Source: an uncultured Cohaesibacter sp.
GTDB taxonomy: Bacteria > Pseudomonadota > Alphaproteobacteria > Rhizobiales > Cohaesibacteraceae
Direction: 5' to 3'
Assembly: GCF_963676485.1 (NCBI RefSeq)
Contig: NZ_OY781114.1
Location: 1,820,501-1,884,500, forward strand
DNA length: 64,000 nucleotides
The notes under the pieces: model-generated
Told to the model about the DNA's origin: nothing
Databases searched by the model: none
What the model saw: only the letters and a program-made list of their open reading frames with translations
Position numbers and translations under genes: made by a program
Shown here: positions 4,301-35,309 of the stretch, piece by piece
How positions within the stretch are numbered: the stretch's first letter is position 1
How the letters are laid out: each line of letters begins with the position of its first letter

Positions 4301-5890
4301 ATGGCGTTTCTCATTTCCAATCTTATTTTGCTTGATGGTTGGCGCCGCCTGCTGGTCGCTTTCCTTTTTGGGTGTCTGGCCAGTCTGGCGATGGCCCCTC
4401 TGAGCTGGTTCCCCCTGCTTTGGCTTTGTGTTCCCGTTTTTGTCTGGCTGCTTGATTCTGCCTCTTTAGGGAACAGCACGAAAAGAGCCATCCGCTCTAT
4501 GGCTTTGGTAGGCTGGGTCTTTGGCCTGGGTTTCTTCCTTTGCGCTTTCTACTGGATCGGTGCCGCGTTCCTCGTGGAAGCAGACAAATTTGCAGCCCTG
4601 ATGCCTTTTGCTCTGTTTTTCTTTGCAGCCGGGCTGGCTCTCTTCTGGGCAGTGGCCTGTGGCCTTGTTGCTCCGCTCTGGTCATCTTCTCCGATGCGCG
4701 TCATATGGCTGGCGCTGACATGGTCCGCGTTGGAGTGGCTGCGTGGCACGATCTTCACCGGATTGCCTTGGGGCGGCCTTGGGCAGGCGCTCACATCAAC
4801 GACTGTCACGATGCAAGCGCTGGCGCTCGTCGGCCCGGAGAGCATGGGGCTAATAGCCCCCGTCATCTTTGCCTTACCGGTATTTTTCTTTGCTGACGCG
4901 CCCTCTCGTAAGAGCGGCTATGGGCTGACCTTTATTGCCGCTTTGTTATTCGTAAGCCAATGCGCATTCGGCTTCTATCGATTGAATCAGACACCTCCTC
5001 AGCCAGACGCCCCCGTGACCGTACGGATCGTGCAGCCGAACATTCCGCAGCGGGAAAAATGGAAACTTGAGAATCGTTCATGGATTTTCAATCGCCTGCT
5101 TGCCTTAACGACTTTGGATCGTGAGGAGTATCCTGTTGAAAAAGTCGACCTCTTTGTCTGGCCAGAAACAGCCATTCCCTTCTATCTGATCGAGCAACCA
5201 GCCGGACTTGCGGCGATCGCACAATCTCTGCCGGACAAGGCCACATTGCTGACAGGGGCTCTCAGAAGAGAGGTAAATTTTACCAGTAGCGAACAAGTTT
5301 ACAATTCCATCTATCAGATCTCCGGCGATGGAACGATCATGGCCTCCTATGACAAGATTCATCTTGTCCCTTTTGGCGAATATTTGCCGAAAGAGCGCTG
5401 GTTGCGTGCCATCGGCCTTGAACATCTAGCCGCGCAATTATCCGGTTTTTCATCCGGTACAAAAAGAAAACTGCTGGGTGACGCTCATTTGGGAAAAATT
5501 CTACCCCTGATTTGCTATGAAATAGCATTCCCAAGCGAAATTCTTTCCTACCCGGCGGGAGCAACCATGATTGTGAATGTCACGAACGATGCCTGGTTTG
5601 GGAAGACGGCAGGCCCATGGCAGCATCTGCATCTGGCTCAAATGCGAGCGGTTGAAACCGGCCTACCGGTTATTCGTTCCGCAAATACAGGTATTTCAGC
5701 AATTATTGATCCCTTTGGCAGACTGGTGGCAAAACAGGATCTGGGCACCGATGGTCTGGTTCAGGAAATTGTTCCTGCGCGGCTGCCAGCCACCCTTTAT
5801 AGCCGCTTTGGCGATCACATCTTCTTTTTCCTATGGTTGCTGACTGGCTGTCTTGCATTAATCAAAATGAGAAAATCCAAAATCCGCTAA
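4301..5890 (+). CDS. lnt: Apolipoprotein N-acyltransferase
   Basis: Inner-membrane enzyme (529 residues) that adds the third acyl chain to the N-terminal cysteine of diacylated lipoproteins, using a phospholipid as donor. The N-terminal half has about six hydrophobic segments; the nitrilase-like periplasmic domain covers roughly residues 225-490 and a last membrane segment lies near 505-520. The catalytic triad is visible: E289 in WPETAIPF, K352 in YDKIHLVPFGEYLP and C405 in LICYEIAFP. Downstream NVTNDAWFG and SANTGISA are family-typical. The first in-frame start after the upstream stop is ATG 4301, yet no ribosome-binding site precedes it; a hairpin does. The next gene is an XRE regulator, as is common before metK in Hyphomicrobiales. 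Confidence 0.96.
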   Translation: MAFLISNLILLDGWRRLLVAFLFGCLASLAMAPLSWFPLLWLCVPVFVWLLDSASLGNSTKRAIRSMALVGWVFGLGFFLCAFYWIGAAFLVEADKFAALMPFALFFFAAGLALFWAVACGLVAPLWSSSPMRVIWLALTWSALEWLRGTIFTGLPWGGLGQALTSTTVTMQALALVGPESMGLIAPVIFALPVFFFADAPSRKSGYGLTFIAALLFVSQCAFGFYRLNQTPPQPDAPVTVRIVQPNIPQREKWKLENRSWIFNRLLALTTLDREEYPVEKVDLFVWPETAIPFYLIEQPAGLAAIAQSLPDKATLLTGALRREVNFTSSEQVYNSIYQISGDGTIMASYDKIHLVPFGEYLPKERWLRAIGLEHLAAQLSGFSSGTKRKLLGDAHLGKILPLICYEIAFPSEILSYPAGATMIVNVTNDAWFGKTAGPWQHLHLAQMRAVETGLPVIRSANTGISAIIDPFGRLVAKQDLGTDGLVQEIVPARLPATLYSRFGDHIFFFLWLLTGCLALIKMRKSKIR

Positions 5891-5899
5891 TTGTAATAA

Positions 5900-5930
5900 T
5901 TGACATATAGCGTTAATACACGGCACTATT
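5900..5930 (+). promoter_or_regulatory. Possible promoter of the XRE regulator gene
   Basis: A perfect TTGACA at 5900-5905 lies ten bases after the lnt stop; the best -10 candidates (CACTAT or TATTGT) give 18- to 21-base spacers and are weak. It would give a leader of about 140 bases. Confidence 0.3.
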
Positions 5931-6070
5931 GTAGAATCCCGTTTTCTATAGCCAAAGGCGCAAACGGTTTACGGGAAAAGCGCAGGAAGCGGAACCTGCA
6001 GTATAACCAGATGGACGTGAAAAAAACTTGTCACACAGAACAACACGTCGAAACAAAAAAAGAGAGCCAA

Positions 6071-6484
6071 ATGGCCAGTAAAAAAGCACCGAACCCAATC
6101 GATGTCTATGTTGGAAGTCGTGTCCGACTTCGTCGTATGATGCTTTCTATGAGCCAAGAAAAACTTGGGGAGCATCTGGGCATTACATTCCAGCAGATTC
6201 AGAAATACGAAAAAGGGACCAACCGTATTGGCGCCAGCCGTCTTCAGCACATTGCAACCGTGCTGCAAGTCCCGGTTTCCTTTTTCTTCGAAGACGCCCC
6301 AGGTACCCCCCAAGAAGCTCAGGGCCTTGCTGAATCCAAGTCAGAGAATTATGTCATCGACTTCCTATCCTCTTCTGAAGGCCTGCAGTTGAACCGTGCC
6401 TTCGTACAGATCAAAGACCAGAAAATACGACGCAAGATCGTTGAACTGGTGCGTGAGATCTCCGGAGAGGGTGCGGAAAGCTAA
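6071..6484 (+). CDS. XRE-family helix-turn-helix regulator
   Basis: Small DNA-binding protein of 137 residues. A Cro/CI-type HTH covers about residues 15-70 (SQEKLGEHLGITFQQIQKYE, then NRIGASRLQHIA), and a conserved C-terminal tail (LQLNRAFVQIKDQKIRRKIVELV) follows a variable linker. This regulator type is regularly found between lnt and metK in Hyphomicrobiales; its targets are not evident from sequence. The ATG at 6071 is preceded by AAAGAGAG at good distance and begins MASKK, matching the usual start; a longer open frame upstream to 5900 has no family support. Two hairpins follow the stop. Confidence 0.9.
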   Translation: MASKKAPNPIDVYVGSRVRLRRMMLSMSQEKLGEHLGITFQQIQKYEKGTNRIGASRLQHIATVLQVPVSFFFEDAPGTPQEAQGLAESKSENYVIDFLSSSEGLQLNRAFVQIKDQKIRRKIVELVREISGEGAES

Positions 6485-25518: not shown

Positions 25519-26307
25519 TCACCAGCAGCAGAAGCCACCATCCACAAGCAGGTTTACGCCTGTGCAATAAGAAGAAGCATCACTGGCAAGGAAGATGGCC
25601 GGACCAACCATTTCTTTCACGCTGGCCATGCGATGCATCGGTGTCTGATCTTCAAATTCTTTGGTCTGATGCACCATTTCAGGACGGGTATTCATTGGCG
25701 TTGCCGTATAGCCCGGGCTAATGGCATTCACGCGCAGACCACCGTCAACCCATTCCATTGCCATGCTCTTGGTCAGATGAATGACGCCAGCCTTGGAGGA
25801 ATTATAATGCACCTGCATGAGGCCACGGTTGACGATCACGCCAGACATGGAAGCGATATTGACGATGGCACCCTTGCCATGTTTGAGCATTGCGTTGGCT
25901 TCTGCCTGACAGGACAGGAAAACCCCTTTCAGGTTGATCTCCATCAGGGTCTGGAATTGGTCTTCACTCATTTCTTCTGCCGGATTGGCATTGGCGATGC
26001 CAGCAGAGTTGACCGCGATCGCCAAGTCTCCGAGCTCTGCTTCCGTTTTGGCGACAGCCTCAACAAGGGACTCCTTGTTCGTGACATCAGCCGTAATGGC
26101 AATTGCCTTCTTCCCTGCGGCGGCAATCGCGTCAACCGTCTTGGCAAGGCCATCATCTTCGCGGCGGTCCAGACATGCCACGTCTGCGCCGCACTGGGCC
26201 AGACCAATGGCAATATGCTGCCCAATGCCGCTGCCCGCTCCGGTCACCAGAGCCACGCGGCCGCCAAGATCAAACATCGCTGGCGCATTGAAATTGAATT
26301 CGGACAT
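25519..26307 (-). CDS. Short-chain dehydrogenase (polyol/sugar type)
   Basis: Classical SDR of 262 residues, probably oxidising a polyol to a ketose with NAD. Seen: Rossmann TGAGSGIG (near 22-29), the acidic CLDRR after strand 2 that favours NAD, NSAG, the catalytic Ser in NIASMSG and YNSSK, and the SPGYTATPMNTRPE segment common to sugar-alcohol dehydrogenases of the arabinitol/threitol type. The C-terminus GVNLLVDGGF is intact. It is the last gene of the importer operon, 45 bases after the ATPase gene, which ties it to use of the imported compound. The exact substrate is unknown. Confidence 0.88.
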   Translation of the reverse strand: MSEFNFNAPAMFDLGGRVALVTGAGSGIGQHIAIGLAQCGADVACLDRREDDGLAKTVDAIAAAGKKAIAITADVTNKESLVEAVAKTEAELGDLAIAVNSAGIANANPAEEMSEDQFQTLMEINLKGVFLSCQAEANAMLKHGKGAIVNIASMSGVIVNRGLMQVHYNSSKAGVIHLTKSMAMEWVDGGLRVNAISPGYTATPMNTRPEMVHQTKEFEDQTPMHRMASVKEMVGPAIFLASDASSYCTGVNLLVDGGFCCW

Positions 26308-26352
26308 ATCTTTCTCCCATATTCGAACCAGGAAATCCTTTTGCCAGACGAG

Positions 26353-27843
26353 CTAGCTGGTAGCCAGTTCCATGACTGACACATCATTTGCATTTGCGCG
26401 ATCCAGGATTCCGGCCTGTTTGCCTTCAGCCATTACCAGGATCCGGTTTGAAACACCCAACACTTCCTCAAGATCGGAGCTGACAACAATCACGCAGATC
26501 CCTTTTTCCGACAGCTCGACAATGATGTCATAGATGGACGAACGGGCGCCCACATCAATCCCGCGGGTCGGCTCATCCAGAACAACCACCTTGGGGTCTG
26601 TTGCCAACCATTTGGCCAAAACCACTTTTTGCTGGTTACCACCAGACATCTCGTCGGCATTCTGGTGCCCTTGCCCCTTCACACCAAAGCGAGCAATGTT
26701 TTCTGCGGCAAAGCTGTCCAGCGCCTTCTTGCTTACCCATTTTTTCGGGGCGACGGCCTTCATGTTGGCATAGCCGATATTTTCAGAGATGCTGTGCTCA
26801 AGCACCAACCCCTGCAGTTTGCGATCTTCAGGCACGAGAACGATACCATTGCGGATGGATTGTTGCGGGCTGCGCGGCGTAACATCCTTGCCATCAAGAT
26901 AAACCCGCCCTGACGAAATCGGATCTGCGCCAGTGATGGCGCGAACCAGCTCGGAGCGCCCAGCTCCGACCAGTCCGGCAATGCCGAACACCTCGCCCTT
27001 ATGAACCTTGAAACTGACATCATGAAAAGCACCCTGAGCTGATGTCAGGTCCTTCACCTCAAGGGTCACGTCATCACCAACAGGCGGAAAACTCGGGAAC
27101 ATGCGCCCAAGCTCGCGTCCCACCATGCTTTCAACAATGGTGCGCACGGGCACATCGCCCTTGTCGAATTCCCGCACCTTGGAGCCGTCGCGCATGACCA
27201 CGATACGATCAGCGATACGCCGGATTTCTTCCAGGCGGTGCGAAATATAGATGATACCGACGCCATCGGCCCGCAGGCGATCAATCTGCTTGAACAGCAG
27301 TTCCGTCTCGGCGTCGCCAAGCGCTGCGGTCGGTTCATCAAGAATAAGCAATTTTGCATTGAGGGTAAGCGCCTTGGCGATTTCTACCAGCTGCTGATTG
27401 GCGGTAGAAAGACCCTCGACCTTGCGGTTCGCAGGCAGATCAAGCCCCAGCCGTTCCAGCTGTTCCTGTGCCTTGCGCTCCATGGCCTTGCGATCAACCT
27501 GACCGTGGGATTTGGGCCAGCGCCCAACGAATACATTCTCTGCAATCGTAAGATGGGGAAGCAATCTTAGCTCCTGATGGATCAGGCCCAAACCTGAATC
27601 GATTGCCTCGCGAGGGTTGGCGGGCGCGTAATCCGCGCCTCGCCATGTCATTGAGCCCGAACTTGGCCGGATTGTACCGCAAATGATGTTGGATACCGTT
27701 GACTTACCGGCTCCGTTTTCACCCAGCAGGGCAACCACTTCTCCTTCATGAATATCAAGATCGATGCCATGAAGAATCTGCAGCGGTCCATAACTCTTCT
27801 TGATTTGACGAAGAGAAAGAATTGGAGATTTGACCTCAGCCAT
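26353..27843 (-). CDS. Sugar ABC transporter ATPase, RbsA type
   Basis: Energy subunit (496 residues) with two ABC domains. First domain: Walker A GENGAGKS (41-48), Walker B LLILDEPTAAL, signature region TANQQLVEIAKAL. Second domain: degenerate Walker A GLVGAGRSE, signature SGGNQQKVVLAKWL, Walker B VVLDEPTRGIDVG. The degenerate second P-loop is normal for the ribose/xylose transporter class. It works with the RbsC-like permease and RbsB-like binding protein encoded upstream in the same operon. Confidence 0.94.
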   Translation of the reverse strand: MAEVKSPILSLRQIKKSYGPLQILHGIDLDIHEGEVVALLGENGAGKSTVSNIICGTIRPSSGSMTWRGADYAPANPREAIDSGLGLIHQELRLLPHLTIAENVFVGRWPKSHGQVDRKAMERKAQEQLERLGLDLPANRKVEGLSTANQQLVEIAKALTLNAKLLILDEPTAALGDAETELLFKQIDRLRADGVGIIYISHRLEEIRRIADRIVVMRDGSKVREFDKGDVPVRTIVESMVGRELGRMFPSFPPVGDDVTLEVKDLTSAQGAFHDVSFKVHKGEVFGIAGLVGAGRSELVRAITGADPISSGRVYLDGKDVTPRSPQQSIRNGIVLVPEDRKLQGLVLEHSISENIGYANMKAVAPKKWVSKKALDSFAAENIARFGVKGQGHQNADEMSGGNQQKVVLAKWLATDPKVVVLDEPTRGIDVGARSSIYDIIVELSEKGICVIVVSSDLEEVLGVSNRILVMAEGKQAGILDRANANDVSVMELATS

Positions 27844-27895
27844 TTCGGGCCCTCCCTTATCCAGCCATTATCGAACAATCAGACGTCAGGTCCGA

Positions 27896-28831
27896 TCAAG
27901 GATGATTTTCGATGAACGGGCCAACATTGTCCTTTGTGGTCAGGGTCGCTGGCAGCAACTGCAGTTTCGGAACCTCTTCGCCTGCAACAAGCTTGATGGC
28001 GCTATCCACGGCCAGACGACCGAAATACTGGGTACGCTGGGTGCTGGTTGCATCGAAGACGCCATCCTGCAGAGCCTTAAGAGCCGCGGTGTCACCATCA
28101 AAGCCGAAGACGAAGATGTGCTGCGGCAGGTTGGCAACCTTTACGGCCTGAGCTGCACCAAGTGCCAAAGCGTCTGCCTGACCCCAAACGATGGTTGCGT
28201 CTGGATGCGCCTGCAGCATGTTCTGGGTGATCTGGAATCCTTCGTCCTGTGACCACATCTGGCTATATTGCTCGGATGCGATGGAAATGTCCGGATACGC
28301 TTTCATGGCTTCCATACAGCCTTTGGTGCGATCCACTTCAGGGGTGGTGCCTTTCTGACCATGCACGATCAGCATGGTGCCTTTTCCGCCCACCTGTTCG
28401 AATGCATAGTTGCAGATTTCCTTGGCAGAAGCGACGGAGTCGGATGCGATGAAAGTATCGCCTGGCGCGCCTTCCGGATTACGGTCAATGTTGATGACAG
28501 GAACACCCTGAGCGTGGGCAAGGCGGGTTGGCACTGCCGCTGCGGCAGCACCTGCGGGGACATAAATCAAGGCCTGAATACCCTGCGTCAGCAGATCCTG
28601 AACCTGGCTGACCTGCGTTGCGCTATCGCCTTTGGCATCTACGATGATGAGATCGAGACCTTTTTCCTTGGAATAGGCTTCAACCGACATTTTGATCTGA
28701 TTAAAGAAGTTGGCCTGAAGGTTGGCGACTGCGAGGCCAAGCTTGTGAAGTTCGGCTGCAGAGCTGCTCACAGGTGTCAGTGCGGTTGCCAGAACAGCTG
28801 CTGCGGCAAACAGTGAATGTTTGAGTTTCAT
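27896..28831 (-). CDS. Periplasmic sugar-binding protein, RbsB type
   Basis: Substrate-binding protein (311 residues) of the ribose-type ABC importer. Signal peptide MKLKHSLFAAAAVLATALTP to about residue 26; the mature part has the type I fold pattern: QIKMSVEAYSKEKGLDLIIVDA, DLLTQGIQALIYVPAG, VPVINIDRNPEG, KGTMLIVHGQKG, TIVWGQADALALGA, VFGFDGD. The GGAGGAG box gives strong translation. The ligand is not identifiable by eye; family relatives bind ribose, galactose, polyols or autoinducer-2. It lies between permease and ATPase genes, after two intercistronic hairpins. Confidence 0.93.
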   Translation of the reverse strand: MKLKHSLFAAAAVLATALTPVSSSAAELHKLGLAVANLQANFFNQIKMSVEAYSKEKGLDLIIVDAKGDSATQVSQVQDLLTQGIQALIYVPAGAAAAAVPTRLAHAQGVPVINIDRNPEGAPGDTFIASDSVASAKEICNYAFEQVGGKGTMLIVHGQKGTTPEVDRTKGCMEAMKAYPDISIASEQYSQMWSQDEGFQITQNMLQAHPDATIVWGQADALALGAAQAVKVANLPQHIFVFGFDGDTAALKALQDGVFDATSTQRTQYFGRLAVDSAIKLVAGEEVPKLQLLPATLTTKDNVGPFIENHP

Positions 28832-28855
28832 TTGATATTTCTCCTCCGTTAAGAC

Positions 28856-28887
28856 CCAGACATTGCCTCCAACAACAGTATGTCTGG
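28856..28887 (-). other. Intercistronic hairpin before the binding-protein gene
   Basis: Perfect 8-bp dyad CCAGACAT / ATGTCTGG with a 16-base loop. With the next hairpin it fills the gap between the permease and binding-protein genes; no T-run follows, so it more likely stabilises the downstream mRNA. Confidence 0.5.
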
Positions 28888-28909
28888 CATTTTCCGGCTT
28901 GCACCGGTT

Positions 28910-28932
28910 GGTGGTGGCCCGTGCTCACCACC
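28910..28932 (-). other. Second intercistronic hairpin after the permease gene
   Basis: Perfect 7-bp dyad GGTGGTG / CACCACC with a nine-base loop, 24 bases after the permease stop on the minus strand. Confidence 0.5.
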
Positions 28933-28955
28933 GTCTTTGGCACAATGCCAAAATC

Positions 28956-29936
28956 CTATCCCTTCTTTTTCTTGAGCACTTCGGCAGCCACTGCCAAAGC
29001 GATCACGACCCCGATAACCACCTGCTGCGTGAAGGGAGAGACCCCCAGCAGATTGAGGCCATTGCGCAAGACGCCGATCACCAACACCCCGATCACCGTT
29101 CCGGCAATGCCGCCGGTGCCACCGCTAAGGCTGGCGCCGCCGATAACCACGGCAGCAATCGTGTCCAGTTCGTAGGAAATACCGGAACTTGGCTGAACCG
29201 AATCGAGCCTTGCGGCCAAAACGATGCCTGCGAGCCCGGAAAGAACCGCCGAGGTGACATAAACAAGGATGGTGGACAGCCGAACATTGATGCCGGCCAG
29301 ACGCGCGACTTCCTGATTGCCACCGATTGCATAGAGGCAGCGGCCGCCCGTGGTGTTGCGCAAGAAGATCCATCCGGCAGCAAAGACAACCAGCATCAAC
29401 CCGACTGTCACGGTCAGGAAACCGCCGTGACGAATGATCGCAAGCAGATTGAACCAGCCCGGAAACCCGACAATCTGCTGACCATCGGTGATCATATTGG
29501 CCAAGCCGCGCGCAACAGACATCATTGCAAGAGTGGAAATAAAGGCAGGCACGCTGAATTCCGTAATCAGCAATCCGGTCACCGCTCCGGCAACTGCCGA
29601 GGCAAACAGGGCAACCACGATCGCAAGCGGCAGTGCCATGCCCACTTCATTGGACAGATAGCCCATGACCATCATGGAAAGAGCCAGGATCGAGCCAACG
29701 GACAGGTCAATGCCGCCAATAAGGATGACAAAGGTCATGCCTACGGCCATGATTCCGAGCACTGTGATCTGGTCGAGCACATTCAAAAGATTGCGTGCGG
29801 TGAAGAAGGAATCTGTCGCGAAGCTGAGAAAGGCACAAAGCAACAGAAGTCCGATAAGAGGTCCAGTTGCCCCACCAAAAGAAAACAGGCTTGAGACAGA
29901 CGGTGAGGATGAGCGCCCCCGTGCTACTGAAATCAT
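28956..29936 (-). CDS. Sugar ABC transporter permease, RbsC type
   Basis: Integral membrane permease (326 residues) with eight to ten hydrophobic segments. The family motif MTFVILIGGIDLSVGSILAL and the later GLAGIVLAARLDS, TIAAVVIGGASLSGGTG and LRNGLNLLGV segments identify the RbsC/XylH class (BPD_transp_2). The start at 29936 (MISVARG) is chosen for the GGGAGGA box ten bases upstream; the open frame runs further up to 30041 without family support. It is the first gene of the minus-strand operon and is transcribed from the promoter at 29994-30022. Confidence 0.92.
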   Translation of the reverse strand: MISVARGRSSSPSVSSLFSFGGATGPLIGLLLLCAFLSFATDSFFTARNLLNVLDQITVLGIMAVGMTFVILIGGIDLSVGSILALSMMVMGYLSNEVGMALPLAIVVALFASAVAGAVTGLLITEFSVPAFISTLAMMSVARGLANMITDGQQIVGFPGWFNLLAIIRHGGFLTVTVGLMLVVFAAGWIFLRNTTGGRCLYAIGGNQEVARLAGINVRLSTILVYVTSAVLSGLAGIVLAARLDSVQPSSGISYELDTIAAVVIGGASLSGGTGGIAGTVIGVLVIGVLRNGLNLLGVSPFTQQVVIGVVIALAVAAEVLKKKKG

Positions 29937-29993
29937 GACAGCAATTCCTCCCATTTCCTTAAAACTGCATAAATATTCAGTGTTGATAATAAT

Positions 29994-30022
29994 TTCATAT
30001 CTGAACTTGAATTCAATGTCAA
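29994..30022 (-). promoter_or_regulatory. Promoter of the importer operon with palindrome in the spacer
   Basis: On the minus strand a perfect TTGACA (30017-30022) and TATGAA (29994-29999) with a 17-base spacer. The spacer contains the perfect 10-bp palindrome TTGAATTCAA (30007-30016), a candidate operator for the SorC-family regulator encoded in the divergent operon. Confidence 0.6.
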
Positions 30023-30096
30023 TGAAAATTGCGTGAAACACAAGCAGAAATGGTTATTTGGTCTAAAGTTTAGCACAATCATCCCAAACAAAATTC

Positions 30097-30125
30097 TTGA
30101 CACCCTATATGAAATGCATTTTAAT
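30097..30125 (+). promoter_or_regulatory. Promoter of the transketolase-kinase operon
   Basis: Perfect TTGACA (30097-30102), 17-base spacer and TTTAAT (30120-30125), about 33 bases before the first start codon. The palindrome AAATGCATTT (30112-30121) overlaps the -10 side and is another candidate operator half. Confidence 0.6.
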
Positions 30126-30157
30126 TTATTATAGAATATTTATTCAGGGAGCCAATC

Positions 30158-30979
30158 ATGGATATCTTAGAACTGAAAAAGATGGCCAATGACATTCGCC
30201 AGAGAGATCTGCGGGCTGTCTTTGAAGCGGGCGCGGGGCATATCGGCGGTGAAATGTCGGTAACGGATCTCCTCACAGCTCTCTATTTCCGCATTCTGAA
30301 TGTGGATCCAAAGAACCCGATGGACCCCAAACGGGACCGATTCATTCTCAGCAAGGGCCATGCGGCGCTTGCCCTCTATGTCACGCTCTCCAAACGGGGA
30401 TTCATTGATCCAGAAGAGATTTCCACTTTCCTGAAGCCGCATTCCCGTCTCAACGGCCACCCCAACCGAAACAAGGTGCCCGGCGTTGAAACCAACACCG
30501 GCCCCTTGGGGCATGGTTTACCGATCGCAGTGGGCATGGCAAAAGCCGCCAAGATCAGCGGCGATACATGGCGCACGGTGGTGATCACAGGCGATGGTGA
30601 AATGCAGGAAGGCAGCAACTGGGAAGCCATCATGGCTGCAGCTCAGTTCGGGCTGGACAATCTCACGCTGATCATCGACCACAACCGCCTGCAACAGGGC
30701 GCAAGACTGGCAGACACCAACAATATTGCCCCTCTCCCTCCCAAGCTTGAAGCCTTTGGCTGGGCTGTTGAAGAGATCAACGGCAACGATATGGAAGAAA
30801 TCTGCGACGCGCTTGACGCCAGCAAGGTGGTTCCGGGCAAACCGAGATGCATCGTGGCACACACCAACAAAGGACATGGTATTTCCTTCATGTCCGACAA
30901 TGTGGCCTGGCATCACAAGGTTCCTGACGCAGAGCAATATAAACAGGCCATGGCCGAGCTGGAGGAGACCGTATCATGA
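30158..30979 (+). CDS. Transketolase, N-terminal subunit
   Basis: 273-residue thiamine-diphosphate subunit of a two-gene transketolase. Seen: GHIGGEMS, the catalytic histidine loop SKGHAALALY, GPLGHGLPIAVGMAKA, and the ThDP/Mg motif GDGEMQEG...IIDHNRLQQG. It lacks the pyrimidine-binding and C-terminal domains, which are supplied by the next gene; the two overlap by four bases (ATGA), implying coupled translation. CAGGGAG precedes the ATG. Two-subunit transketolases next to a sugar kinase often serve a dedicated catabolic route rather than the pentose phosphate cycle. Confidence 0.93.
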   Translation: MDILELKKMANDIRQRDLRAVFEAGAGHIGGEMSVTDLLTALYFRILNVDPKNPMDPKRDRFILSKGHAALALYVTLSKRGFIDPEEISTFLKPHSRLNGHPNRNKVPGVETNTGPLGHGLPIAVGMAKAAKISGDTWRTVVITGDGEMQEGSNWEAIMAAAQFGLDNLTLIIDHNRLQQGARLADTNNIAPLPPKLEAFGWAVEEINGNDMEEICDALDASKVVPGKPRCIVAHTNKGHGISFMSDNVAWHHKVPDAEQYKQAMAELEETVS

Positions 30980-31935
30980 GCAATTTGTCAGAAGCAAAAC
31001 TCCACGACTGCCGGGATGCGTTTACCCAAACCCTTGAAAGCATGGCCCAGACCAATCAGGAGATTGTGGCCGTTTGCAACGATTCGGTTGGCTCTTCCAA
31101 GCTGAATAGCTTCAAGGACAAATATCCGGACCGACTGATCAATGTCGGAATTGCCGAACAGAATATGATCGGCGTCGGAGCTGGTCTCGCCAACGGGGGC
31201 AAGGTTCCGTTCGTTTGCGGCGCAGCCTGCTTCCTGACCGGACGCGCTCTTGAGCAGATCAAGGCTGACGTGGCCTATTCCAACACCAATGTGAAGCTGG
31301 TTGGAATCAGCTCGGGCATGGCTTATGGCCCCCTTGGTCCGACCCATCATTCCACCGAGGATTTCGCATGGGTTCGCGCCATCCCCAATGTACCGATCGT
31401 CGCACCATGCGATTCAATCGAGACCGCAGCGGCGGTTGCCTATGCGGCTGAGCATACTGGACCGATCTTCCTGCGCCTATCGCGCGAAGGGGTGCCGGAT
31501 CTGTTGCCGGCAGACCACAAATTCGAACTCGGCAAGGCCGTAACCCTCAGGGAGGGCAGCGATATCACGCTGATTGCCAATGGCATCCTTTCGGTGCGCG
31601 CTTTGAAAGCTGCCGAATTGCTGGCTGCCGAAGGCATTTCCGCGCGTGTTCTCAACATGGCAACTGTTCGCCCGATTGACCGCGATGCCATCATTGCGGC
31701 AGCTGAGGAGACCGGCGCGATCCTGACATGTGAAGAGCATACCATCTTTGGTGGGTTGGGCAGTTCGGTTGCTGAGGTTGTTGTCGAGACGGTGCCTGTT
31801 CCAATGACACGGTTGGGCGTTCCCGGCATTTTTGTACCCACTGGTACCGCCAGCTTCCTGCTGGATGAATTCGGTATGGCGCCAGAAGGGCTTGCGGCAA
31901 GCGCCAAAGAGCTTATTAAAAAGAAAAAAGCCTGA
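30976..31935 (+). CDS. Transketolase, C-terminal subunit
   Basis: 319-residue subunit with the pyrimidine-binding domain (about 10-175) and the transketolase C domain (about 190-315). The catalytic glutamate is in GIAEQNMIGVGAGLA; GPTHHSTEDFAW and LRLSREGVPDL follow; CEEHTIFGGLGSSVAEV and FGMAPEGLAASAKELI mark the C domain. Together with the preceding subunit it transfers two-carbon units between a ketose phosphate and an aldose phosphate. The kinase gene downstream suggests its donor is the phosphorylated ketose of this pathway. Confidence 0.93.
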   Translation: MSNLSEAKLHDCRDAFTQTLESMAQTNQEIVAVCNDSVGSSKLNSFKDKYPDRLINVGIAEQNMIGVGAGLANGGKVPFVCGAACFLTGRALEQIKADVAYSNTNVKLVGISSGMAYGPLGPTHHSTEDFAWVRAIPNVPIVAPCDSIETAAAVAYAAEHTGPIFLRLSREGVPDLLPADHKFELGKAVTLREGSDITLIANGILSVRALKAAELLAAEGISARVLNMATVRPIDRDAIIAAAEETGAILTCEEHTIFGGLGSSVAEVVVETVPVPMTRLGVPGIFVPTGTASFLLDEFGMAPEGLAASAKELIKKKKA

Positions 31936-32015
31936 GTTTCCCTCAAGGGACCATGGCTCAAAGGACAGACCCTGCGCGGGAGGAGAACCGGGCAGCAGGG
32001 TCCGAGGAGGACGCA

Positions 32016-33479
32016 ATGCAACGGGCAATATTGGCCATTGACGAAGGCACGACAAACAGCAAGGCGATTCTGGTTTCCAAAACCGGAGACATTCTTGCAA
32101 GGGGCTCGTGTCCCGTGCCCATCAACCATCCCCAGTCCGGTTGGGTGGAGCAGGATGCCGAGACCATCTGGAACAGCACCCTCAAGGCCATTGCCGCCTG
32201 TCTTGCGGCAGGTCCGGACATCATGCTGGAGGCCATTGGCATATCCAACCAGCGCGAGTCGGTTCTTGCATGGGACCGGACAACCGGCAAGGCGCTGGGT
32301 CCGGTCGTCACCTGGCAGTGCCGCCGCACCTCGGAAGCGTGCGAACGTCTGAAAGCAGCCGGTCAGGAAGACGAAGTCATCAGACGCACCGGCCTGCCGC
32401 TCGATCCTCTCTTTCCGGCCACCAAAGTGCGCTGGCTGCTGGATAATTGCGGCAAGGACAAAGCGCCTGAAGATATTTGTATCGGCACGGTCGATTCCTG
32501 GCTGATCTGGAATTTCTCCGGTGGAACCCAGCATTTATGCGACGCATCCAACGCCGCCAGAACGCAGCTTTTCAATATTTCCCAAACCTGCTGGGACGAT
32601 ACCCTGTGCGCGCTCTTCGGCGTACCCAAGGCCGTGTTACCCGAGGTGAAGGATTCCTCCCACATTTTCACCCATACAACCGGTGTGCCCGGCTTACCCG
32701 ATGGCATTCCGGTCGCCTCTGCCATTGGCGACTCGCATGCTGCGCTCTTCGGCCATGGCGCTTATGGGTTGGGCGATGGCAAGGTAACCTTTGGCACCGG
32801 CTCGTCGGTGATGACCACCATGCCGGAATTCGTCGTGCCGCCACGAGGCGTGACCACCACCATCGCATGGTCTTGCAACGGCAAGCCGACTTATGCCTTT
32901 GAAGGCAATATTCTGGTGAGCGCATCCATTCTGCCCTGGACGGCGGAGCTTCTGGGGCAGAAGGATGTCACCGAACTGCTTGATCTGGCCCAGACTGTTG
33001 AGGATACGCAAGGCGTTGTGCTGGTGCCGGCCCATGTGGGGCTCGGTGCGCCGCACTGGAATTCCACGGCGCGAGGCCTGATGTGTGGTCTCTCCTTTGC
33101 CAGTGGCAAGGCCCATGTCGCACGCGCCGCCGCAGAGAGCATCGCTTTTCAGGTGCAGGATGTGTTCGAGATCATCCTTGCCAATTCGGGTCATGGCATC
33201 GGTAAGCTGTTTGTTGATGGTGGCCCGAGCCAAAATCCATTCCTCATGGGCATGGTTGCTGATTATATCGATCATTCTGTCATTCAGGGTGAAAGCACCG
33301 AGGCTTCGGCGCAAGGTGCAGCCTATCTGGCAGGCCTTGCGACAGGATTCTGGGCCGACCTGGATGCCATTAGCGCTCTTGGTCAGCATGGGCAGGAAAT
33401 TCAGCCAACAATAGCAAGTGACAGACGCAAGAAAGAGCTTTCCAAATGGCAAGTGGGCATTGAACGAACGCTTCTTTGA
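32016..33479 (+). CDS. FGGY-family carbohydrate kinase (glycerol-kinase-like)
   Basis: ATP-dependent kinase of 487 residues. Seen: phosphate-1 motif AIDEGTTNSKAIL, GISNQRESVLAWDRTTGKAL, CRRTSEACERL, TGLPLDPLFPATKVRWLLD, the second phosphate motif TFGTGSSVMT and the adenosine motif VDGGPSQNPFLMGMVADYI. Overall it resembles the glycerol kinase branch more than xylulokinase, but several substrate-loop residues differ and the gene context (importer, SDRs, transketolase) points to a ketose. The start at 32016 has GAGGAGG six bases upstream; an upstream in-frame ATG (31953) lacks family similarity. The stop overlaps a TTG but the regulator gene probably starts further on. Confidence 0.9.
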   Translation: MQRAILAIDEGTTNSKAILVSKTGDILARGSCPVPINHPQSGWVEQDAETIWNSTLKAIAACLAAGPDIMLEAIGISNQRESVLAWDRTTGKALGPVVTWQCRRTSEACERLKAAGQEDEVIRRTGLPLDPLFPATKVRWLLDNCGKDKAPEDICIGTVDSWLIWNFSGGTQHLCDASNAARTQLFNISQTCWDDTLCALFGVPKAVLPEVKDSSHIFTHTTGVPGLPDGIPVASAIGDSHAALFGHGAYGLGDGKVTFGTGSSVMTTMPEFVVPPRGVTTTIAWSCNGKPTYAFEGNILVSASILPWTAELLGQKDVTELLDLAQTVEDTQGVVLVPAHVGLGAPHWNSTARGLMCGLSFASGKAHVARAAAESIAFQVQDVFEIILANSGHGIGKLFVDGGPSQNPFLMGMVADYIDHSVIQGESTEASAQGAAYLAGLATGFWADLDAISALGQHGQEIQPTIASDRRKKELSKWQVGIERTLL

Positions 33480-33538
33480 ATCTGAAACCTTTCAGGATAG
33501 TATCGCGCGCGATCAACCCTGAATTGGAGGATGCCACT

Positions 33539-34507
33539 TTGGCAAGAGTAAACGAACTGCGGCTTATCGCTCGTGTGGCTCAGCTATACCATGTGGAAGG
33601 CCGCAGACAGGCAGACATAGCAAAGCATTTGCGCATTTCTCAGGCAACCATTTCACGATTGCTCAAGAAAGCACAGGAAGAGGAAATTGTAAGAACAACC
33701 ATCGTTGCTCCCTCCGGAACCTTTGTCGAACTGGAAGACGGGCTGCGCCAGAAATACGAGCTGTCTGAAGTCATCGTCGTGGAGGCGTCGGAGGATCGCC
33801 AAAGCACGATCATGGACAGGATCGGAGAATCGGCCGCCCATTTTCTGGAAGTATCCCTTCAAAAAGACGAGGTGATCGGGGTGTCCAGCTGGAGTGAGAC
33901 GATCCTGCGCATGGTGGACAATATCCACCCCATGCGTTCGGGCCTTGCCAAATATGTGGTGCAGACCCTGGGTGGTATGGGGGATCCGACAGTTCAGACA
34001 CATGCAACTCAGCTGACATCGCGTCTGGCGCGCCTCACTGGAGCCGAAGCGCGCTTGCTGACGGCCCCGGGGGTTGCCCAGTCTCGCGAAGCCAAGCTGG
34101 TGCTTCTGGGCGATCCCTATGTCAGGGAAACGATGGAATTGTTCAACAAGATCACGTTGGCGATCGTCGGGATCGGCGCCACGGAACCCTCATCCATGCT
34201 GGCTCGCAGCGGCAACACTTTCTCCCCCAACGAGTTGGCTGAGCTGACTGATGCCGGGGCCGTTGGCGATATGAGCCTGCGCTTCTTCGATCGCGACGGA
34301 AAGGTAATCAAGACCCCACTGGATGACCGCGTTATCGGCATGCCCCTAGAAGATCTGGCCAACGTGGACCGGGTCATCGCCCTTGCTGGAGGAGAGAGCA
34401 AAACCGAAGCCATTCACGGAGCCCTGAAGACCGGCTGTCTCGATGTTCTGATTACAGACAATTTCACGGCTTGCCGCCTTCTGGAGGAGACAGGCCCAAG
34501 CAGCTAG
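33539..34507 (+). CDS. SorC-family transcriptional regulator
   Basis: Probable local regulator of both divergent operons (322 residues). An N-terminal HTH (about residues 22-42, RQADIAKHLRISQATISRLL) is followed by a phosphosugar-binding domain of about 250 residues (GVSSWSETILRMVDNI, QTLGGMGD, GIGATEPSSML, RVIALAGGESKTEAI). The start is most likely TTG 33539: a GGAGG box lies eight bases upstream and the N-terminus ARVNELRLIARVAQLY then fits the family. A longer frame from TTG 33476 would overlap the kinase stop and has no box. Effectors of this family are usually phosphorylated sugars, fitting the kinase upstream. Confidence 0.88.
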   Translation: MARVNELRLIARVAQLYHVEGRRQADIAKHLRISQATISRLLKKAQEEEIVRTTIVAPSGTFVELEDGLRQKYELSEVIVVEASEDRQSTIMDRIGESAAHFLEVSLQKDEVIGVSSWSETILRMVDNIHPMRSGLAKYVVQTLGGMGDPTVQTHATQLTSRLARLTGAEARLLTAPGVAQSREAKLVLLGDPYVRETMELFNKITLAIVGIGATEPSSMLARSGNTFSPNELAELTDAGAVGDMSLRFFDRDGKVIKTPLDDRVIGMPLEDLANVDRVIALAGGESKTEAIHGALKTGCLDVLITDNFTACRLLEETGPSS

Positions 34508-34526
34508 AAAGCAATGGGAGAATGCA

Positions 34527-35309
34527 ATGAAACGGTTTGAAGGCAAAACCACCGTGATCACCGGAGGAAACAAGGGAATCGGCTTCGCAATTGCGACCAA
34601 ATTTGCCGAAGAAGGCGCAAATGTCGTGATCGCTTCCTTTGAAGATCAGGTCAGGGAAGCTGCAGCAGAGCTGTCCGGCAAAGGCTACAATGTGATCCCT
34701 GCCCTGTGTGATGTCACCAAACCGGAGGAAATCGTCAAGCTTTATGATGCCGCCGAAGAAGCTTTCGGTGAAATCAATATTGGCATTCAGAATGCTGGCG
34801 TAATCTATATTTCCAAAATCGAAGATGTTTCCTACGAAGAATGGACCAAGACGCTGGCCGTCAACACCACCGGATGCTTCCTTGCCTGTCAGGAAGCCAT
34901 CAAACGCATGCGCAAGCATGGCAAGGGCGGCAAGCTGGTCAACACGGCATCCGGTCAGGCGCGAGAAGGCTTTATCTACACGCCGCATTACGCAGCCTCC
35001 AAGTTCGGCGTCATGGGTCTTACCCAGAGCCTTGCCAAGGAAGTGGCGCTTGAAAAGATCAATGTCAACGCCATTTGCCCGGGTATCATCAAGACCGACA
35101 TGTGGGACTATAATGATCGCGTCTGGGGCAGCATGCTGGGTGACTATGGCCCGGGCGAACTGATGGCTGAATGGGTGCAGGGCATTCCGATGCAATATGC
35201 CGGTGAAGGCAAGGACATCGCCAATGCAGTAGCCTTTCTTGCCAGTGATGATGCATCCTACATCACGGGCCAGACCATCAATATTGATGGTGGTCTGATC
35301 ATGTCCTAA
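34527..35309 (+). CDS. Short-chain dehydrogenase (acetoin/sorbitol dehydrogenase type)
   Basis: Second SDR of the cluster (260 residues). Seen: TGGNKGIGFAIA (near 11-22), QNAG, Ser in NTASGQ and YAASK, then CPGIIKTDMWDYNDRVWG and the end GQTINIDGGLIMS. The segment after the CPG motif resembles the diacetyl/acetoin and sugar-alcohol dehydrogenase group. GGGAGA precedes the ATG. It is the last gene of the plus-strand operon, 19 bases after the regulator. With the SDR at 25519 the cluster has two different dehydrogenases, suggesting two oxidations or two related substrates. Confidence 0.88.
   Translation: MKRFEGKTTVITGGNKGIGFAIATKFAEEGANVVIASFEDQVREAAAELSGKGYNVIPALCDVTKPEEIVKLYDAAEEAFGEINIGIQNAGVIYISKIEDVSYEEWTKTLAVNTTGCFLACQEAIKRMRKHGKGGKLVNTASGQAREGFIYTPHYAASKFGVMGLTQSLAKEVALEKINVNAICPGIIKTDMWDYNDRVWGSMLGDYGPGELMAEWVQGIPMQYAGEGKDIANAVAFLASDDASYITGQTINIDGGLIMS

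Follow-up and report, generated by a model that had tools for sequence, protein, structure and literature searches.

The window analysed here is a stretch of 64,000 nucleotides from an uncultured Cohaesibacter sp., probably a marine bacterium, and our subject is a cluster of nine genes in two divergent arms at positions 25519..35309. On the sequence evidence, we estimate a probability of roughly 0.7 that these nine genes form an operon for the non-oxidative use of D-apiose in which no isomerase takes part. In the proposed route, the importer of the RbsABC type would take up apiose or a close derivative. One short-chain dehydrogenase/reductase (SDR2) would reduce apiose to apiitol with NADPH and a second one (SDR1) would oxidise apiitol to apulose with NAD+, so that two redox steps take the place of the single isomerase step. 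Apulose would then be converted by the FGGY kinase to apulose-4-phosphate, from which the split transketolase would transfer a two-carbon unit to glyceraldehyde-3-phosphate as acceptor, with xylulose-5-phosphate and dihydroxyacetone phosphate (DHAP) as products. The SorC protein would regulate both arms from two sites in the divergent region. That apulose is the ketose appears very probable; apiose import combined with the two-step redox route appears likely, at a somewhat lower level of confidence.

In the sections of a 2026 study considered here (PMC13001218), E. coli ST131/ST14 and E. fergusonii are described as having a D-apiose cluster that lacks apsI, the gene for the isomerase, the authors propose two putative oxidoreductases in place of apsI, and the tested carriers of the cluster grow on D-apiose while K-12 does not. 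We take the two SDR genes of the E. coli cluster (ECSF_RS02670-02715 in strain SE15) to be these two oxidoreductases. This cluster shares with the window the two SDRs, the FGGY kinase, AptA, AptB, the SorC regulator, a sugar ATP-binding cassette (ABC) importer, the lack of an isomerase and a similar operator-like site; it differs in its gene order and in its importer, which is of another subfamily and comes with a DUF2291 gene. The kinase, the transketolase subunits and the regulator of the window are 42-48% identical to their E. coli counterparts. The pathway itself is known, and in those sections of PMC13001218 its SDR variant has only the status of a hypothesis, put forward for Escherichia; the suggestion of the initial annotation that this may be a pathway not yet assigned was too strong, since the isomerase-less variant had been proposed there.

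Judged by sequence, the SDR pair is the best-conserved link to the E. coli apiose cluster. SDR1 (25519..26307, minus strand) is 65.5% identical to ECSF_RS02670 and SDR2 (34527..35309, plus strand) 55.5% identical to ECSF_RS02675, the only two SDR genes in the E. coli cluster; to each other, SDR1 and SDR2 are 31% identical. SDR1 scores 475.3 bits with the PRK06114 equivalog model (cut-off 360) and has the motif TGAGSGIG; all 30 of its rows present an Asp after the second strand and the catalytic N/S/Y/K residues. For SDR2, all 34 rows (from 32 distinct loci) have a K or R before GIG, lack that Asp and possess the catalytic N/S/Y/K residues. An Asp after strand 2 is the pattern of NAD enzymes, and a basic residue before GIG that of NADP enzymes; we predict that the two differ in cofactor, SDR1 using NAD and SDR2 using NADP. 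Because this pairing of an NADPH reductase with an NAD+ dehydrogenase resembles the fungal xylose reductase/xylitol dehydrogenase route, which combines the same two kinds of enzyme, we propose the order apiose, apiitol, apulose. The apiose reductase of Aerobacter aerogenes (EC 1.1.1.114, 1970) is said to use NAD; on that basis SDR1 would be the better candidate for the first step, so the steps could be assigned either way: SDR1 is a candidate apiitol/apulose or apiose/apiitol dehydrogenase, and SDR2 a candidate apiose reductase or second dehydrogenase. Neither an apiose reductase nor an apiitol dehydrogenase is named in the full-text literature that was searched, in which apiitol itself is mentioned by three papers.

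Both SDRs fall below the cut-off of 286 for the GolD/DthD family (NCBIfam PRK06841), with 205.9 for SDR1 and 185.7 for SDR2. At E <= 1e-75, SDR1 has matches in 19 of 398 genomes, 15 with at least 65% identity and located in such a cluster, and four with 58-61% identity that are not. Four genomes from one family of the window's order (L231-L234) carry an SDR1 relative of 58-61% identity in another gene setting; the fetched stretches hold no transketolase or kinase, and they offer an outgroup for SDR1 function.

The transketolase genes, for an AptA-like N-terminal subunit (30158..30979) and an AptB-like C-terminal subunit (30976..31935), both on the plus strand, overlap by 4 bases. Their products are 48% and 43% identical to E. 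coli AptA and AptB, and contain the thiamine diphosphate motif (GDG...N) and the catalytic Glu motif (GIAEQ), respectively; they constitute a two-subunit transketolase related to AptA/AptB. For comparison, a census was made of 51 loci having both transketolase subunits and a kinase, the window included. AptB matches at E <= 1e-65 were present in 20 of 398 Pseudomonadota genomes, with all 20 contexts covered; at E <= 1e-60 in 41 of 385 genomes of the window's class, with the contexts of 22 besides the window covered; and in the class of locus L080 in 4 of 198 genomes, all four contexts covered. The count omits L200, which has a kinase of the GlpK group some 6.6 kb away from its transketolase genes; L165 and further loci whose fetched stretch shows a split transketolase but no kinase; and L017/L202, with kinase and transketolase on different contigs. 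In the transketolase phylogeny, proposed as a check by the initial annotation, the window copy groups with the 50 other kinase-linked copies (SH-like approximate likelihood ratio test, SH-aLRT, 94; a quick tree with flagged long branches), and 13 chosen split transketolases without kinase are set apart together with L200. In three loci (L090, L184 and L186), tpiA is found within or at the end of the operon. Its product would recycle DHAP to the transketolase acceptor, which fits because a transketolase that uses glyceraldehyde-3-phosphate and yields DHAP would benefit from it. The release of a ketone phosphate would in turn fit a branched donor such as apulose-4-phosphate.

The FGGY kinase (32016..33479, plus strand) was placed in a carefully built tree that comprises 68 FGGY proteins, also proposed in the initial annotation. 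The window kinase and E. coli AplK, the apulose kinase, lie in one clade of 42 rows (bootstrap 100, SH-aLRT 99), and 16 glycerol-kinase-like rows, among them the window genome's own second GlpK-like kinase (encoded elsewhere, 39% identical to the cluster kinase), form a separate clade (100/99). The likeness to the non-oxidative apiose pathway, on which the initial annotation was built, is well supported by this grouping of kinase and transketolase with AplK and AptA/AptB. The same annotation had held that a kinase inside a glycerol, xylulose or ribulose clade would speak against it: for glycerol the tree shows otherwise, and xylulose and ribulose kinases were judged outside the tree, by model scores of 202.5 and 47.5 bits on the window kinase versus 470.8 for GlpK.

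Ordinary glycerol or ribose use, with the kinase acting on glycerol, the transketolase as a household enzyme and the importer carrying ribose, is very improbable. It is true that, among named families, the kinase scores best with GlpK and that its closest PDB matches are glycerol kinases, but the 470.8 bits are under the cut-off of 498, another curated score is 461.5 for a cut-off of 590, and the genome's other GlpK-like kinase is the one that falls in the glycerol clade. Furthermore, all 16 glycerol-kinase-like rows have Y/Q/F at the positions that we take to be those of the glycerol pocket (Y135, Q246 and F270), where 41 of 41 cluster-linked rows of the AplK clade have L or M at the first and S at the other two; the window has L, S and S. 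D245 is kept in all 41, and R83, E84 and W103 in 40 of them. These features suggest a pocket suited to a substrate with a glycerol-like end and further carbon beyond it; apulose, which is glycerol with a glycoloyl group on C2, would fit it. As regards ribose, the nearest solved relatives of the periplasmic binding protein (27896..28831, minus strand) are ribose-binding proteins, but the positions that presumably contact ribose in RbsB (N13, F164 and N190) are A, W and A in 24 of 24 sequences, and the RbsB score is 151.6, under a cut-off of 337. An ordinary glycerol kinase with a ribose importer was rejected on clade, pocket and curated scores.

Carter et al. reportedly described in 2018 a non-oxidative D-apiose pathway with an isomerase (ApsI-AplK-AptA/AptB). 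No D-apiose isomerase gene is present in the window cluster, as the initial annotation had remarked, and its remark extends to the whole genome (96.7% complete) for both isomerase families found at related loci: the fucose-isomerase type gave only a 22% match, and the TIM-barrel type none at E <= 1e-10. It should be said that isomerases were classed by these two families, either of which may be that of the published ApsI. The SDR1 and SDR2 pair was found in 30 of the 51 census loci, the window included, with both relatives beside the kinase, AptAB and SorC as in Escherichia, and another SDR together with SDR2 in 2. The remaining 19 are isomerase-type loci: 13 with the fucose-isomerase type and no SDR pair, 4 with the TIM-barrel type and 2 (L175 and L176) with isomerases 76% and 86% identical elsewhere in the genome. 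L175 and L176 had been candidates for isomerase-less loci until those genes were found, and so had L187 and L191, in both of which TIM-barrel matches were seen; the route label (T) of L175 in the two trees is a guess that predates the isomerase search of its genome. Compared with the SDR-type clusters, isomerase-type loci have the isomerase instead of the SDR pair and another importer. Where the locus is proteobacterial, they share kinases and split transketolases of the same clades, except for the kinases of L135, L191 and L193 (small genomes). The fetched Enterobacterales versions also share SorC, and most of these the operator-like site.

None of the 19 isomerase-type loci contains the SDR pair, and one of the 30 SDR-pair loci, L010 of Tropicimonas, also holds an isomerase, so that strict mutual exclusion, although nearly true, had to be rejected. 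A whole-genome isomerase search of six SDR-pair genomes (G000, G387, G388, G389, G668 and G617) gave a close isomerase only in G387, that of L010; a match of 22% was seen for one type in G000, and one of 34% for the other type in G617. The SDR pair and the isomerase have been swapped at least three times within the AplK clade, and as often on the whole kinase tree, when both isomerase types are pooled; with the two types told apart, 5 changes are counted in the AplK clade, 7 across all kinases of the tree and 8 for the transketolase. The isomerase-type cluster of Rahnella and the SDR-type cluster of E. coli have kinases 72%, AptA 79%, AptB 76% and regulators 72% identical. Because the routes swap within one kinase clade and join proteins so similar, both should yield the same ketose, apulose.

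A ketose other than apulose, branched or linear, made from an unusual polyol (a tetritol, a pentitol or another branched sugar) by enzymes descended from the apiose pathway, is quite unlikely. In its favour are the distance of the kinase and both transketolase subunits from their E. coli counterparts (42-48% identity), the different importer and pocket position 135, which is L in 21 rows of the AplK clade, the window among them, and M in 20. Set against these are the same SDR pair at 55-65% identity, the invariant pocket change at 246 and 270, the similar operator-like sites, the swaps with isomerase loci, and the apiose genes that adjoin the operon in two relatives. One of these is Labrenzia sp. 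OB1 (L014 13388-19786; L226 1-7010), where genes for the D-apionate lactonase ApnL and for OiaX, above their NCBIfam cut-offs, lie directly beside the SDR-type operon together with an OiaK-like kinase that scores under its cut-off. ApnL, OiaK and OiaX belong to the oxidative D-apiose pathways, which run through apionate; for OiaX, no match at E <= 1e-10 was found in the window genome. The other is L010, where a fucose-isomerase-type gene and an importer of the E. coli type stand beside the SDR-pair cluster. Its genome has a single AptB match at E <= 1e-40, so the two routes should converge on a shared kinase and transketolase.

In this Tropicimonas strain (sp. IMCC34043; L010 1671-3455 and 636-1949, L228 15501-18118), besides the isomerase and the second importer next to the operon, an OiaX-like gene 79% identical to that of Labrenzia is found elsewhere in the genome; by its gene content, three apiose routes in one genome are possible. 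Clusters of the GolD/DthD type occur in Caballeronia (L166 and G613/L181). They share the split transketolase, an FGGY kinase and the SDR2 relative, and differ in that SDR1 is replaced by another SDR, which in L166 (11960-12757) belongs to the GolD/DthD family (315.8 bits, cut-off 286), and in a kinase outside the AplK clade, so their substrate may differ.

The importer consists of the binding protein, an ATPase of the RbsA/AraG type (26353..27843) and a permease of the RbsC type (28956..29936), all on the minus strand. It is not the importer of the Escherichia-type cluster: the binding proteins are 25% identical, and the ATPases and permeases 37%. The ATPase is 66-67% identical to copies in Rhizobium and Agrobacterium. 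We read this importer as a separate subfamily, whose substrate may be apiose, apiitol or both. The initial annotation had proposed a scheme of polyol uptake followed by oxidation. What stands of it is that SDRs, close relatives of the E. coli pair, would supply the ketose instead of an isomerase. The polyol as imported compound is not borne out, because the same SDR pair in E. coli goes with growth on the sugar D-apiose, and because both SDRs are kept in 24 of 24 loci with the window-type importer, while a polyol would need one.

A form of this scheme in which the importer carries apiitol, SDR1 converts this to apulose, SDR2 plays a secondary part or acts on apiose from another source, and the lower pathway is unchanged, is unlikely, given that constant presence of both SDRs although apiitol needs one oxidation. 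In its favour, the window-type importer is present in 24 of the 30 SDR-pair loci (6 lack it) and in none of the 17 that have an in-locus isomerase but lack the SDR pair, and three loci (L010, L014 and L180) hold both the window-type and the E. coli-type importer, which could point to the uptake of two compounds; the E. coli-type one of L010 sits with the isomerase. These counts are strong, but they are not independent of descent and reduce to three independent pairs, so the importer type was rejected as proof of a different substrate and kept as a rival. A dedicated apiitol system, in which the binding protein would import apiitol, an SDR would make apulose and the kinase/transketolase module would be shared with the apiose routes, has only slightly better prospects and is still rather improbable; if it were true, two importers and two ketose-making routes would converge on one kinase in Tropicimonas. 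Two further loci may be mentioned: in L180 (3017-17488; G526, Pseudomonadota outside the window's class) genes of both importer types surround a single set of SDR pair, kinase and AptAB, and the SDR-pair locus L134 (G026) has at 4814-6097, in place of the ABC importer, a permease-like gene that we read as of the major facilitator superfamily kind.

The SorC/DeoR-type sugar-binding regulator (33476..34507, plus strand) is 42% identical to its counterpart in the E. coli apiose cluster. An operator-like near-palindrome, CTGCATAAATATTCAG (29965..29980, plus strand), and a second copy with 3 mismatches, CTGAATAAATATTCTA (30132..30147, minus strand), are the sole sites with up to 3 mismatches in the window, and both lie in the divergent region, which measures 221 bases with the permease start at 29936. 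Similar sites are TTGAATATATATTCAA in E. coli and GTGAATAAATATTCAC in Sodalis. The near-palindrome was derived from shared 8-mers and then scored against single-base shuffles. Of the 39 loci with SorC, 32 have such a site in the 260 bases upstream of the transketolase, compared with 1 of the 12 that lack SorC (shuffle p <= 0.05; loci not independent); the motif being the window's own site, the window and L009 are not independent of it, and without them the count is 30 of 37. A search of the window for exact-palindrome operators found none, and a promoter scan was hardly above shuffles (2 found, 1.3 expected).

The genes are ordered as permease, binding protein, ATPase and SDR1 in the left arm (minus strand) and as transketolase N, transketolase C, kinase, SorC regulator and SDR2 in the right arm (plus strand). 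Open reading frames and family searches agree with the initial description of an RbsABC importer, two SDRs, a split transketolase, an FGGY kinase and a SorC regulator, and all nine genes were judged real. The permease (326 aa, from 29936) and the kinase (487 aa, from 32016, with the longest frame from 31953) probably start later than their longest reading frames. Relatives of the kinase were surveyed with one genome per species, taking the best 80 of 146 loci that encode one; among these, kinase identity is 65-95% in the top eight and drops to 44% in the ninth. Since the 8 loci whose kinase reaches 65% identity or more all have the complete set of nine genes, the cluster is not a chance grouping; they belong to Cohaesibacter, three Tropicimonas, Pacificibacter, Labrenzia, Rhodobium and Roseibium. 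The kinase of C. marisflavi is 95% identical to that of the window. The nine-gene set is also carried by Rhizobium and Agrobacterium plasmids, at 56-78% identity, and is complete in 23 fetched loci overall; Klebsiella aerogenes and K. pneumoniae records contain the SDR-type cluster. In the Rhizobium (L090 1023-1652) and Agrobacterium (L091 2534-3175) plasmids, ribB, for 3,4-dihydroxy-2-butanone-4-phosphate synthase, adjoins the operon. The alphaproteobacterial form with the other importer was not found in full-text literature searches, most subscription papers lying outside them.

Several points weigh against the reading of the cluster as an isomerase-less apiose operon. The growth evidence in E. 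coli is, in the sections considered, by strain and not by gene deletion (PMC13001218), and the identity of kinase and transketolase to the E. coli copies is moderate. The 21-row group that holds the window inside the AplK clade has weak support (85/72), and 8 of the 19 isomerase-type loci carry kinases outside that clade (5 from Bacteroidia and 3 from small genomes of the alphaproteobacterial class, to which the 2 Caballeronia-type loci add), which leaves 11 that bear on the swap argument. L010 departs from strict exclusivity, and the whole-genome isomerase search covers six SDR-pair genomes, the one with an isomerase included. A clear operator-like site is absent from 7 of the 39 loci with SorC. 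Finally, the importer differs from that of E. coli so much that the imported compound could differ, and the association between importer and route, with its three independent pairs, has no significance.

The analysis offers a concrete gene assignment for an uncharacterised step, the formation of apulose without an isomerase, in a wide range of bacteria; candidates include rhizobia, Cohaesibacter, Tropicimonas, Labrenzia, Klebsiella and pandemic E. coli lineages. If apiitol is indeed the intermediate, these genes might account for the apiose-reducing activity reported for Aerobacter aerogenes (EC 1.1.1.114). According to the part of PMC7644952 considered here, apiose is one of the main sugars in the apiogalacturonan of seagrasses, which would be a plausible source of it for marine carriers. 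The kinase pocket and the cofactor signatures of the SDRs would help to annotate both routes, with and without isomerase, from sequence.

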